NCBI GenBank assembly: GCA_018139225.1
Contig: JAGSNX010000003.1
Coordinates: 1-64,000 of the forward strand
Direction: 5' to 3'
From: Microvirga sp. SRT01
GTDB lineage: Bacteria; Pseudomonadota; Alphaproteobacteria; Sphingomonadales; Sphingomonadaceae
DNA length: 64,000 nucleotides
Part shown: in pieces, positions 10,821 through 14,604 of the stretch
Numbering within the stretch: position 1 is the first letter of the stretch
Layout: every line of letters begins with the position of its first letter
Program-made: the position numbers and the translations under genes
The notes under the pieces: generated by a model
The model's input: only the letters and a program-made list of their open reading frames with translations
Database searches by the model: none
Told to the model about the DNA's origin: nothing

Positions 10821-11399
10821 ATGCGTATCGACCTGATCCCGGTGGGCAAGAGCCCGCCGGACGACCTGAACGTCATCATCGAGGTGCCGACCGGTGGCGA
10901 GCCGGTGAAGTACGAGTTCGACAAGGCGTCCGGCGCGCTGTTCGTCGATCGCATCCTGCACACGCCGATGCGCTATCCGGCGAACTACGGCTTCGTGCCG
11001 CATACGCTGTCGCCCGATGGCGATCCGCTCGACGCGCTGGTCATCGCCCGCTCGCCGTTCATCCCCGGCTGCGTCGTGCGCGCCCGCCCGATCGCGGTGC
11101 TGAACCTGGAAGACGAGGCCGGTGGCGACGAGAAGCTCGTCTGCGTCCCCGTCGACGAGGTGTTCCCATACTATTCCAACGTCGGCGGCCGCGCCGACGT
11201 GCCGGAGATCGTGTTCGAGCAGATCGAGCATTTCTTCACCCACTATAAGGACCTCGAAAAGAAGAAGTGGGTCCGCATCGGCGTCTGGGGCGATGCGAAC
11301 GAAGCCAAGCGCATCACGATCGAAGCTATTGCCCGCTACGACGAAGCCAAGGCCAAGGGCGAGGAACCGCACGACCACGACGTCCCCGGCCGCGATTGA
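10821..11399 (+). CDS. ppa: Inorganic pyrophosphatase (family I)
   Basis: It hydrolyses pyrophosphate in the cytoplasm, pulling biosynthetic reactions forward. The 192-residue protein carries the family I signature DGDPLD at residues 66-71, the YEFDK lysine region at 31-35 and the RYPANYGFVPHT segment at 51-62. The C-terminal HDHD tail is slightly longer than in the 175-residue enzymes. The start ATG begins MRIDLIPVGK, the usual alphaproteobacterial start. Confidence 0.96.
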   Translation: MRIDLIPVGKSPPDDLNVIIEVPTGGEPVKYEFDKASGALFVDRILHTPMRYPANYGFVPHTLSPDGDPLDALVIARSPFIPGCVVRARPIAVLNLEDEAGGDEKLVCVPVDEVFPYYSNVGGRADVPEIVFEQIEHFFTHYKDLEKKKWVRIGVWGDANEAKRITIEAIARYDEAKAKGEEPHDHDVPGRD

Positions 11400-11494
11400 G
11401 GGTCGTTGCGACCGGTACCTTTGAATATCGTGGGATATCACATCACGTCCAAAGCGGACCTTGTTCGTCTCGGAGCCGGTAAGGCACTGGTCTA

Positions 11495-11526
11495 GCGTCT
11501 CTCCTCCATAAATAAGGGAGAGACGC
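11495..11526 (+). promoter_or_regulatory. Start-site hairpin that hides the ribosome-binding site
   Basis: GCGTCTCTCC (11495-11504) and GGAGAGACGC (11517-11526) are perfect reverse complements with a 12-nt A/T-rich loop. The 3' arm contains most of the Shine-Dalgarno AAGGGAG and ends directly against the ATG at 11527. The 10-bp stem would close the ribosome-binding site. The arrangement fits a translational switch such as an RNA thermometer, or a binding site for a protein or sRNA; which one cannot be told from sequence. Confidence 0.65.
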
Positions 11527-11688
11527 ATGGCCTATCGCAGGCGCAACGGACACGACACCTGGCATTATTGTCGCAACTGCACGCTCTGGCCCACGTCCGA
11601 CTATAAGGAACAGTCGACGAAGCCGACCACGGGCGAGTTGTGCAATCAGTGTCGCTCGAAGGACAGCGCCGGAACCTGCACCAAATAG
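11527..11688 (+). CDS. 53-residue double-CxxC (zinc-ribbon-like) protein
   Basis: A very short gene supported by its AAGGGAG ribosome-binding site, an ATG and a domain-like product. Residues: basic MAYRRRNGHDTWHY start, C15-x2-C18, the WPTSDY segment at 21-26, C39-x2-C42, and a fifth Cys at 51. The CxxC-x20-CxxC spacing suggests a small zinc ribbon. I recall similar uncharacterised small proteins in sphingomonads but cannot name a family. It stands alone: 127 bp after ppa and 130 bp before the oxygenase gene, with strong hairpins on both sides. Function unknown; nucleic-acid binding is only an inference from the basic N-terminus. Confidence 0.75.
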   Translation: MAYRRRNGHDTWHYCRNCTLWPTSDYKEQSTKPTTGELCNQCRSKDSAGTCTK

Positions 11689-11693
11689 GCGTG

Positions 11694-11732
11694 GACGCTT
11701 CGATCGCGATCGGTAGACGCGATCGGAGCGTC
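11694..11732 (+). terminator. Strong stem-loop after the CxxC mini-gene
   Basis: GACGCTTCGATCGCG (11694-11708), a 9-nt loop and CGCGATCGGAGCGTC (11718-11732) form a 15-bp stem with one G-U pair, five bases after the stop codon. No T-run follows, so it may protect or end the mRNA rather than act as a canonical terminator. Confidence 0.5.
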
Positions 11733-11818
11733 ACCCTGACAGCGGCTCGCGATGTCTCGCGATTGCGGCGGGTCGGGGTCGCGACGAATGAGGCGGCCGG
11801 CATCGGGGAGATCGCGGT

Positions 11819-12484
11819 ATGGGCGAGTATGACGGCATCCGCGTGCGCGCCGACCTGCTCGGCCTCTACGAGACGCCCGTGCTCCACGGGCACCTCGCCG
11901 ACTCGCAGGCGCTGACCGCCGCGCTGGCGGCAGCGATCCGGGCGAAACGCGCGGCCGACCCCGGCATCGCGCGGTCCAATGTCGGTGGCTGGCACTCGGC
12001 CACCGACATGCTGGGCACCGCCGGAATGGGGTGGGGCGGCCCCGCCGCCGCGACGCTGGCGGAGACGGCGGTGAAGATGTGCAAGCGCCTGTCGTGGTTC
12101 GAAGGACGCGACGCCGCCTCCTATGAGTGGACGGTGCGGATGTGGGCGAACGTGTCGCCTGCGGGTGCACTCAACATGAGCCACGCGCATCCCGGCGTGC
12201 TCTGGGCCGCAGTATTCTACGTCGACATGGGCACGCCCCCCGCGGAGGGAGAGGCCGGCGGCGAACTGTTCTTCGAAGACCCCCGCGCACCCGTCCCCTA
12301 TATGCGCCTGCCCGGCTTCCGCCTTGTGGGCACCGACGGCCAGCCACAGCCGATCGAGCGGCGCGTCGTCACCAGGGTTGGCGACCTCGTCGTTTTCCCC
12401 GCCTGGACCCGTCACGGCGTTCGCCCTCACCTCGGCACCGGCGACCGGATCTCGGTGGCGATGAACATCGACGTGAAGGCCTAG
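11819..12484 (+). CDS. TIGR02466-type putative 2-oxoglutarate/Fe(II) oxygenase
   Basis: A 221-residue protein that resembles the TIGR02466/2OG-FeII_Oxy_5 family. Features are the ETPVLHGHL start, GGWHSATDML near residues 55-65, a MSHAHPGVLWAAVFYVD block (about 119-136) that would supply the first iron ligand, GGELFFEDPRA (about 145-156), and a final block VFPAWTRHGVRPH with the second His and the 2-oxoglutarate Arg (about 193-206). The substrate is unknown for the family. It is monocistronic here, following the CxxC mini-gene. Confidence 0.8.
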   Translation: MGEYDGIRVRADLLGLYETPVLHGHLADSQALTAALAAAIRAKRAADPGIARSNVGGWHSATDMLGTAGMGWGGPAAATLAETAVKMCKRLSWFEGRDAASYEWTVRMWANVSPAGALNMSHAHPGVLWAAVFYVDMGTPPAEGEAGGELFFEDPRAPVPYMRLPGFRLVGTDGQPQPIERRVVTRVGDLVVFPAWTRHGVRPHLGTGDRISVAMNIDVKA

Positions 12485-13043: not shown

Positions 13044-13939
13044 GGCGCCACCTGGATCTGCGCGGCGATGTCCCTCGACCGGGCGGCGTACAGGCACGCG
13101 GCGACGATCACGCCCGCCCCCGCGATCGTCCACAGCGACAGTCGCTCGCCGAACACCGCATAGCCGAGCAGCGCGGCGTACAGGAACGATGTGTATTCGG
13201 TGGTCGCAAGATAACCCGTCTCCCCATGCGCATAGGCCCAGCCCAGCAGGAACAGCGACGCCGTTGCCAGCGCTGCGCCGATCGCCAGTTTGGGCCATTC
13301 GCCCGCATCCGGCCATATCGCCAGCCACGGTGCGGCGCAGAGCAGGATCAGGCCGATGATCCCCGACTGGAAGAACGCGATCTCCCCCGGCCCCGCCGCC
13401 TGCGACTGCAATCGTGCGACGATCAGGTTCACCGCGTACAGCACCGCCGATGCGATCACCGCGACCGATCCGGCCAGCGCCTCCTCGCCCAGCCGCATCT
13501 GCGACTGCCCGGCCAGCACCACGAGCACGCCGCCAAGCGCCGCAACGGAGCCGATCGCGACGCGCCGGCCGACGCGTTCCTTGAGCACGACAGCGCCCAG
13601 CAGCAGCGCGAGGATCGGGGCGACGTAGGTCAGCGTGATCGCCTGCGCCATCGGCACGCGCGCCAGCCCCCAGAAGAACAGCACCGCCATTACCGCCGTG
13701 ACGCAGGCGCGCAGCACGTGCAGCCGGAACCCTCGCGCGCTCGGCCGCGGCGCACCACTGCCGCCCCAGATCGCTGCGCCGAGCCCCGCCGAGATCAGCG
13801 TGCGCCACAGCAACGCGTTATAGACGCCGATCGCCAGCACCAGCGACTTCATGAACGCATCCATGATCGAGAACAGCCCGATCCCCGCCGCCGCCACGGC
13901 AAAGGCCAGCGCGGGCGTGACGGGACGTGGTGCGGTCAC
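13040..13939 (-). CDS. EamA/DMT superfamily exporter
   Basis: A 299-residue inner-membrane transporter with ten predicted helices in two EamA repeats (about residues 10-140 and 155-290). The first repeat ends TYVAPILALLLGAVVLKERV and the second ends ALLGYAVFGERLS, the paired signature of this family. It likely exports a small metabolite. The GTG start overlaps the stop of the PIN-toxin frame (GTGA) and its own stop overlaps the GNAT start, so all sit in one coupled transcript. The pairing with an acetyltransferase suggests handling of an amine or amino acid, which is inference. Confidence 0.85.
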   Translation of the reverse strand: MTAPRPVTPALAFAVAAAGIGLFSIMDAFMKSLVLAIGVYNALLWRTLISAGLGAAIWGGSGAPRPSARGFRLHVLRACVTAVMAVLFFWGLARVPMAQAITLTYVAPILALLLGAVVLKERVGRRVAIGSVAALGGVLVVLAGQSQMRLGEEALAGSVAVIASAVLYAVNLIVARLQSQAAGPGEIAFFQSGIIGLILLCAAPWLAIWPDAGEWPKLAIGAALATASLFLLGWAYAHGETGYLATTEYTSFLYAALLGYAVFGERLSLWTIAGAGVIVAACLYAARSRDIAAQIQVAP

Positions 13940-14314
13940 CGGATTTGCCGTATTTCGATGGCAAGGCCCAACGTCGACCACTTCGTATCTGCGGTCAGCA
14001 GCGGAAGATTTCTCTGAAGTGCCAGGGCAAGGCAAATCCGATTAGCCAACAACACGTCGTCGTAGCGTGTCCTTAACCGCAAGGACGCAGCCAGGATCGC
14101 CTGCTGCTCGTCGAATGGCGTGACGACGAGGCCCAAGTCATCCAGCAACGCTTTGCACGACGCAACGTCGATGCCCCGGTCATTCATCTTGGCAAGCGTC
14201 TCAGAGAAGTTGACCGCTGAACAACGCGCCATGCAAATGCGGGATGGCGACTTCTGCGCCGTTTTCCTGCTGAAGCACCGCCATCACGGCGGATGCATCG
14301 ACAACATGCGTCAC
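13936..14314 (-). pseudogene. VapC-type PIN-domain toxin, frameshifted
   Basis: Two overlapping frames together spell one PIN protein of about 127 residues. The first part (GTG at 14314, overlapping the antitoxin stop) reads MTHVVDASAVMAVLQQENG and stops at 14201. The second part (from about 14220 to 13936) continues SAVNFSETLAKMNDRG to the end. The join falls in the expected GAL(F)S-AVN motif, so one extra base or two missing bases near 14215-14225 break the gene. The first acidic residue (VVDAS), the SET glutamate and the TAD aspartate remain, but the usual third/fourth acid in the CLALA helix region reads ANR, with Asn where Asp is expected. The toxin is probably inactive unless the shift is a sequencing error or a programmed event. 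Confidence 0.72.
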
Positions 14315-14604
14315 GCGCCTGGGCGATCCTTGGACCACCTGTCATCATCGGCGTTCTCACGCGCCGCCTCCGCACGCCGGTCGGCTATCAACTCGTCTGC
14401 GATGCTAGTCTGGTCGCCGGACGGCAGCATCGCGCGAAAACGCGCCTGCACATCGCGGACGACCTGCTCATAATTCTTCAACACAACCTTGCCGTCCTCG
14501 CGAGCGATCGTCAGCACCGTGCCCGGACGCAGCCCGAGTTCCTCCGCCAGTTCATCCGGCAGGACCAGCTGTCCTTCAGCGGTGACACGGGCTTGATAGG
14601 TCAC
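14311..14604 (-). CDS. AbrB/SpoVT-type antitoxin (VapB-like)
   Basis: A 97-residue protein with an N-terminal swapped-hairpin AbrB DNA-binding domain (YQARVTAEGQLVLPDELAEELGLRPG, split over residues 3-28, then VLTIAREDGKVVLK). The Arg/Asp-rich C-terminal tail is the usual toxin-wrapping region. It would repress its own operon and neutralise the PIN toxin. It is the first gene of a chain in which every following gene overlaps the previous stop (GTGA at each junction): toxin remnant, EamA exporter, GNAT enzyme. Confidence 0.82.
   Translation of the reverse strand: MTYQARVTAEGQLVLPDELAEELGLRPGTVLTIAREDGKVVLKNYEQVVRDVQARFRAMLPSGDQTSIADELIADRRAEAARENADDDRWSKDRPGA

Follow-up and report, generated by a model that had tools for sequence, protein, structure and literature searches.

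Gene A and its locus behind ppa

The window, a stretch of 64,000 nucleotides from contig JAGSNX010000003.1 of Microvirga sp. SRT01, carries on its forward strand a small cysteine-rich gene, here called gene A (11527–11688). Upstream on the same strand lies the host gene ppa for inorganic pyrophosphatase (10821–11399; PF00719, E 3.5e-54), and downstream, also on the same strand, a 2OG-Fe(II) oxygenase-like gene (11819–12484; TIGR02466/PF13759). Two inverted repeats on the forward strand, both recognized by complementarity and folding, bracket gene A: a leader hairpin at 11495–11526, with arms 11495–11504 and 11517–11526 around a 12-nt loop, and a 3′ stem-loop at 11694–11732. The gene A frame runs from ATG to TAG and encodes 53 amino acids with the motifs HYCRNC and LCNQC. 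By phmmer, profile search, alignment and AlphaFold modeling its product belongs to a family of predicted small zinc-binding proteins with the signature DTWHxCxNC ... GELCNxC.

An earlier note on this DNA had claimed a small cysteine-rich gene here, and that claim holds: gene A is a real gene of an unnamed, conserved and apparently mobile family, with 46 relatives by phmmer and 1,600 by profile among 5.8 billion proteins searched. Residues H13, C15 and C42 are present in 109/109 aligned members, and C18 and C51 in 108/109. C39 is found in 94 of the 109 and is replaced in the other 15 (by D in 13), which means that two CxxC motifs alone do not describe the zinc site; zinc binding itself is predicted from the cysteines. 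Among the nearest relatives is P0001, 94% identical. The AlphaFold model is confident (mean pLDDT 94.3), placing strands at residues 3–6, 11–13 and 26–29 and a helix at 40–48 that starts at the second CxxC, a predicted arrangement that resembles a treble clef. Foldseek returned no PDB match for this model, and the best rows from a viral structure library had E of at least 1.8, two of them being 'metal binding domain of Ada'. Pfam domains are absent from the best 120 of the 1,600 profile matches, among which the names read 'hypothetical' or 'uncharacterized' protein. A Pfam scan of 47 family members gave a best E-value of only 0.018, and NCBIfam, Pfam and PHROG had no match to the window's protein, hence no nuclease domain. 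In the openly accessible literature searched, as far as its available text goes, we recognized no publication describing the family. Likened by description only, it recalls the small CxxC proteins of PMC6562870, which according to the accessible part of that paper occur in cells and viruses, as the gene A family does, although the latter is mostly bacterial.

The position of gene A behind ppa is shared within the genus. The four copies of gene A in the genus (window, A2-49, G903 and RYN_532) all lie on the same strand as a ppa-like frame and 95–162 nt after it. In three relatives that have no gene A (L110, L111 and L112, of which L110 and L111 are alike and may not be independent empty sites), the oxygenase-like gene directly follows ppa at a distance of 4–5 nt, versus the 419-nt segment containing gene A in the window (11400–11818, forward strand). 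At L113, where a fourth strong relative of the oxygenase-like gene is found, ppa is missing from the locus. Because the two host genes nearly abut in the three relatives, gene A looks inserted into a transcription unit, and on this comparison of sequences it apparently entered behind ppa together with about 419 nt; loss of the segment from the other genomes is a possible alternative. No terminator was called in the interval between ppa and gene A. The same interval holds, on the forward strand, a box TCACGTCCAAAGCGGA (11443–11458) that is common to two other ppa-locus copies and might, as a guess, be an activator site. The four ppa-locus leaders align poorly, except for the box TCACGTCCAAWGCGGA in three of them.

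Several further features of these loci were observed. In two ppa-locus copies (L140:1397-1431 and L009:2918-2956) the shared box belongs to palindromes, GGACGTGA with TCACGTCC, which by eye do not occur in the window. Candidate inverted repeats, I6 and I9, lie near the ends of the window's gene A segment, and a leader-peptide-like frame can be read by eye from GTG at 11430 to TAG at 11495. Farther downstream on the reverse strand (13936–14604), a MazE/AbrB-type antitoxin frame (PF04014) sits beside a PIN-domain frame that covers profile positions 33–115 of 120, the earlier part lying, by eye, maybe in another frame.

Distribution and mobile company of gene A

Gene A is rare among close relatives and scattered well beyond them. 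It is single copy in its own genome and occurs, that genome included, in 4/295 genomes of the genus, 7/298 of the family (two of them distant, at about 5e-9) and 4/385 of the class (two weak, at 3e-4, with a stop inside). The family of G967 has it in 7/346 genomes, one match being weak. Overall we located gene A at 73 genome loci, spread over many phyla of bacteria and also found in some archaea, at 24 viral-contig loci and in three plasmid records; a search of 50,697 phage records gave no match. The plasmid copies, from Thermus and Halosolutus (NZ_CP016313.1, NZ_CP095494.1 and NZ_AP024936.1), are matches without a listed gene, the gene table being incomplete. A gene that is rare and scattered among relatives, yet present in many phyla, on viral contigs and on plasmids, points to horizontal spread.

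The neighbors of gene A are in keeping with such company. In three contigs an IS1-type transposase lies 59–84 nt upstream on the same strand. An IS1-type DDE transposase (PF03400) precedes gene A at L004:560-1429, a homologue 59% identical to it is found at L059:2078-2932, and a remnant at L081:4794-4916. IS1595-type transposases lie near gene A in L032, L024, L051, L091 and L102. In three phyla gene A is preceded by an IrrE-like gene (PF06114) that itself follows an HTH regulator, the latter identified by eye (L022:1854-2929, L054:1757-2848 and L035:1090-2189; the domain scores above the cut-off in two of these and below it in L054). These transposon-like and viral-contig neighbors suggest that gene A is an accessory gene of mobile elements. 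That it travels as the passenger of one particular insertion sequence was considered and rejected: transposases stand near several copies, but no shared terminal repeats were found, and none was noticed beside the window's copy.

A second family, B, accompanies gene A at many loci. Its members are small cysteine-rich frames of the form TCKVCGxxDKFDFxVPDxxWxxVVP...VVCLxCFDxFA, present in 32/115 gene A loci, duplicates included (for example L032:3162-3527, L034:3156-3521, L087:2295-2597 and L092:5164-5430). Where orientation was computed, A and B are convergent in 22 of 24 loci, their frames abutting or lying at most 12 nt apart, with one overlap of 25; in the other two, B lies upstream of A on the other strand. 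On viral contigs, 15/33 B loci have a convergent A, with 8–30 nt between the matched parts, and for 18/33 no A was found in the stretch retrieved. The B profile has 305 matches, and none of eight members scanned against Pfam scored above the cut-off. Family B was not detected in the window's genome or in the other three ppa-locus genomes.

Hairpins at either end of gene A

The earlier note described a perfect 10-bp stem at the ATG that pairs away the Shine-Dalgarno (SD) sequence, followed by a 15-bp stem-loop five bases after the stop, and both are present. The leader arms are complementary at 10/10 positions, folding adds a T-G wobble to give 11 pairs, and the 3′ foot, which contains the SD-like GGGAGAG, ends at 11526, the base before the ATG. 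The region 11485–11560 folds at −28.6 kcal/mol (z −3.9), and the GGAG of the SD has a predicted mean unpaired probability of about 0.001. The 3′ stem begins 5 nt past the stop; its arms (11694–11708 and 11718–11732) are complementary at 14/15 positions (93%, z −5.2), leaving one non-Watson-Crick pair. Its role as an intrinsic terminator was considered and rejected, as the stem has no U-tract and terminator calling over 11300–11850 gave none. In the G903 copy, a stem is followed by TTTTT as judged by eye.

By itself the window's leader hairpin is unusual but not unique, given its matches among controls. Among 248 control genes, the number that hide the SD at least as well ranges from 5 to 11 with the choice of folded stretch, and at 2/173 control starts of the same genome a perfect stem of at least this length ends near the ATG. 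Shuffling restricted to the bases upstream of the SD gives p = 0.045 for the window's leader, and among the gene A copies a minority reach p ≤ 0.05. Comparing the copies is more telling, on two measures, leader structure and SD accessibility.

Structured leaders recur among the Sphingomonadaceae copies. The leader z-scores, from which L007 was left out, are −3.7 for the window, −3.2 for A2-49, −5.1 for G903 and −0.9 for RYN_532 at the ppa locus, and −3.3 (L004), −2.6 (L003), 0.0 (L002) and −1.5 (L005) in other genera of the family. Thus 5/8 leaders have z ≤ −2.5, compared with 9/184 controls from six sphingomonad genomes other than those of L004, L005 and L006 (p 5e-5); without the window the count is 4/7 (p 4e-4). 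Two further copies bring the count to 5/10 (p 2e-4): L062 (z −0.2), from Erythrobacter, which we take to be a member of the Sphingomonadaceae, and L006 (z −0.74), which is distant and has no SD. In the leaders of L008/L140, L002, L005, L006 and L062 the structure is not unusual.

Similarly, SD accessibility sets the alphaproteobacterial copies apart. An SD with an unpaired probability below 0.1 is predicted for 10/25 of these copies versus 24/248 controls (p 2e-4), and for 9/24 without the window (p 7e-4). Over four choices of folded stretch the Fisher p is 0.0002, 0.015, 0.0027 and 0.0005; when accessibility is scored over fixed positions, −14 to −5, in place of the SD motif, the effect is weak (p 0.018, 0.042, 0.31 and 0.032). 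Minimum free energy alone does not distinguish gene A leaders from controls. No SD-hiding effect appears outside the alphaproteobacteria (3/32 versus 12/102) or among viral copies (2/13 versus 8/58). In L003 and L058 the upstream neighbor is on the opposite strand and the SD is nevertheless hidden.

Starts of control genes are frame-based rather than annotated throughout. These counts use repeated leaders once (L008/L140, L009/L105, L011/L002, L012/L010, L013/L003, L171/L015, L173/L021 and L176/L020). L172 and L174 are L016 and L032 again, L177 was left out as close to L028, and L139 and L017, which have no listed SD motif, do not enter the SD counts. The pattern used to find frames missed 23 loci, seven of which were rechecked: L006; L042 and L053, which have no start codon in reach; and L007, L079, L107 and L108, which gave nothing. 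Four Rhizobiaceae loci were found later, two of them repeating known leaders (L176 and L177) and two being new (L175 and L178). The new ones have neither a hidden SD nor the TA element described below, and L178 and L028 have an upstream hairpin that leaves the SD free. Family members thus differ in their architecture. By the earlier note's own standard, a stem not kept along with the protein would count against it, and this is half the case: the stem sequence turns over between copies while the protein is conserved, yet leader structure recurs in some of them. The hairpin is probably selected for its structure in part of the gene A family.

A candidate promoter within the hairpin and its possible meaning

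The 5′ arm of the leader hairpin is overlapped by a candidate −10 element, TAGCGT (11493–11498, forward strand), identified through the positional enrichment of TA[AG][CG]. This pattern, which was picked after viewing most of the sequences later counted, occurs at −37 to −32 in 10/27 alphaproteobacterial copies versus 6/248 controls (p 8e-8; 5e-7 without the window). None of 400 shuffles of 25 leaders matched the observed positional peak, and motif EM on 25 alphaproteobacterial leaders returned as its top motif a weak T(C/A)GCnT, whose positions cluster in just a subset of them. The start of transcription can be placed with a rule from Zymomonas, which we take to be a sphingomonad. According to PMC7566282, the −10 element of its housekeeping promoters is TANNNN, most often with a 6-nt discriminator; by this rule transcription in the window is predicted to start near 11505. 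The window has no TTG −35 element 17 nt upstream of the TA element (the bases are TCGGAG), and a sigma-70 promoter scan found nothing.

A start near 11505 would lie inside the hairpin and deprive the short mRNA of 10 of the 11 paired bases of the 5′ arm. In silico, the unpaired probability of the SD in the short versus the long mRNA is 0.49 versus 0.001 in the window, 0.85 versus 0.001 in L004, 0.88 versus 0.014 in L021, 0.74 versus 0.19 in L140, 0.73 versus 0.44 in L020 and 0.24 versus 0.06 in L003, where a TA at −40, outside the counted range, was used. The short mRNA thus opens the SD in 6/10 scorable copies; in L009, L015, L016 and L018 the SD gains little accessibility in the short mRNA or becomes still more hidden.

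The reading that best fits these observations, to which we give a probability of about 40%, is that gene A is locked against read-through from ppa. Transcripts of ppa would run on through gene A, and on this long mRNA the hairpin, predicted to hide the SD, would block translation. The putative internal promoter would yield a short mRNA from which most of the 5′ arm is missing, and its freed SD would allow translation. A known precedent is found in phage T4. According to PMC2988022, in long transcripts that cover the interrupted host unit a stable hairpin sequesters the SD of I-TevI, I-TevII, I-TevIII, segB and Aeh1 mobE, as predicted for gene A, and mRNA from the gene's own promoter contains too little of the hairpin, a candidate likeness in gene A; for I-TevI, the hairpin arises only when transcription comes from promoters further upstream, the late promoter starting too far downstream to include it. 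The T4 homing-endonuclease genes of that account are mobile inserts, as gene A apparently is. Unlike them, gene A resides on a bacterial chromosome and encodes a 53-aa cysteine-rich protein with no nuclease match, and its promoter is predicted only.

The earlier note had proposed a translational switch responsive to temperature, metal or a small RNA. Its hiding of the SD is upheld by prediction, but a lock against read-through seems to fit better than a ligand or small-RNA switch. For metal, the Rfam search found no family at threshold in the window, its lax version returning one chance-level snoRNA match on the opposite strand, which makes a known metal riboswitch unlikely, though one of an unlisted type is possible. 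A related alternative, which we regard as rather unlikely, is that the hairpin sits in the main mRNA and keeps translation low until a trans-acting factor, be it a small RNA, an RNA-binding protein or perhaps the gene A protein, opens it. Such a factor would suit the strong hiding of the SD in any transcript that includes 11495, an internal promoter without a convincing −35 element and the box common to three copies further upstream. It would, however, leave the positioned TA element unexplained and has the missing Rfam match against it, and the stem sequences differ among copies, which makes a shared sequence-specific partner unlikely.

Doubtful as well is the view that the hairpin is a 5′ stability element of the mRNA or a by-product of DNA insertion, with translation unregulated. 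Hairpins that leave the SD free (L028, L177 and L178) and the 24 control genes with a similarly hidden SD are consistent with it; the arm that pairs with the SD itself in the window and several relatives, and an SD hiding that exceeds controls when overall folding energy does not, argue against it. The inverted repeat could also act as DNA rather than RNA, serving as an operator at the promoter to which a dimeric repressor binds, as its perfect 10-bp arms overlap the candidate −10 element. The leader repeats differ among the ppa-locus copies, however, and a single conserved regulator would have trouble recognizing all of them, and we consider this improbable.

In RNA thermometers of the ROSE and fourU types, a stem adjoining the start codon contains the SD, and the window shares this placement, but its GC-rich 11-pair stem is too stable at physiological temperature in silico (the unpaired probability of the SD goes from 0.0115 at 37 °C through 0.0152 (45 °C) and 0.018 (50 °C) to 0.035 at 70 °C), and the melting computation leads us to reject a temperature switch as very improbable.

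For the family as a whole, A (about 1,600 members) and B (305), for which no Pfam model was found and which stand convergent on viral and transposon-bearing contigs, offer a concrete target for functional work. It is conceivable, and we put it forward tentatively, that they make up a widespread mobile module coding for one or two very small cysteine-rich proteins (A, and a tail-to-tail B), whose alphaproteobacterial branch has a lock of its own in which the segment from the −10 element to the start of transcription doubles as the anti-Shine-Dalgarno arm. Host transcripts would then yield no protein from the module, and translation would be confined to its own mRNA. Mobile genes that land in host transcription units face read-through expression, and a hairpin embedded in the promoter would insulate their translation from it. 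If true for gene A, a lock known from the T4 homing-endonuclease genes, as described in PMC2988022, would extend to a bacterial chromosome.
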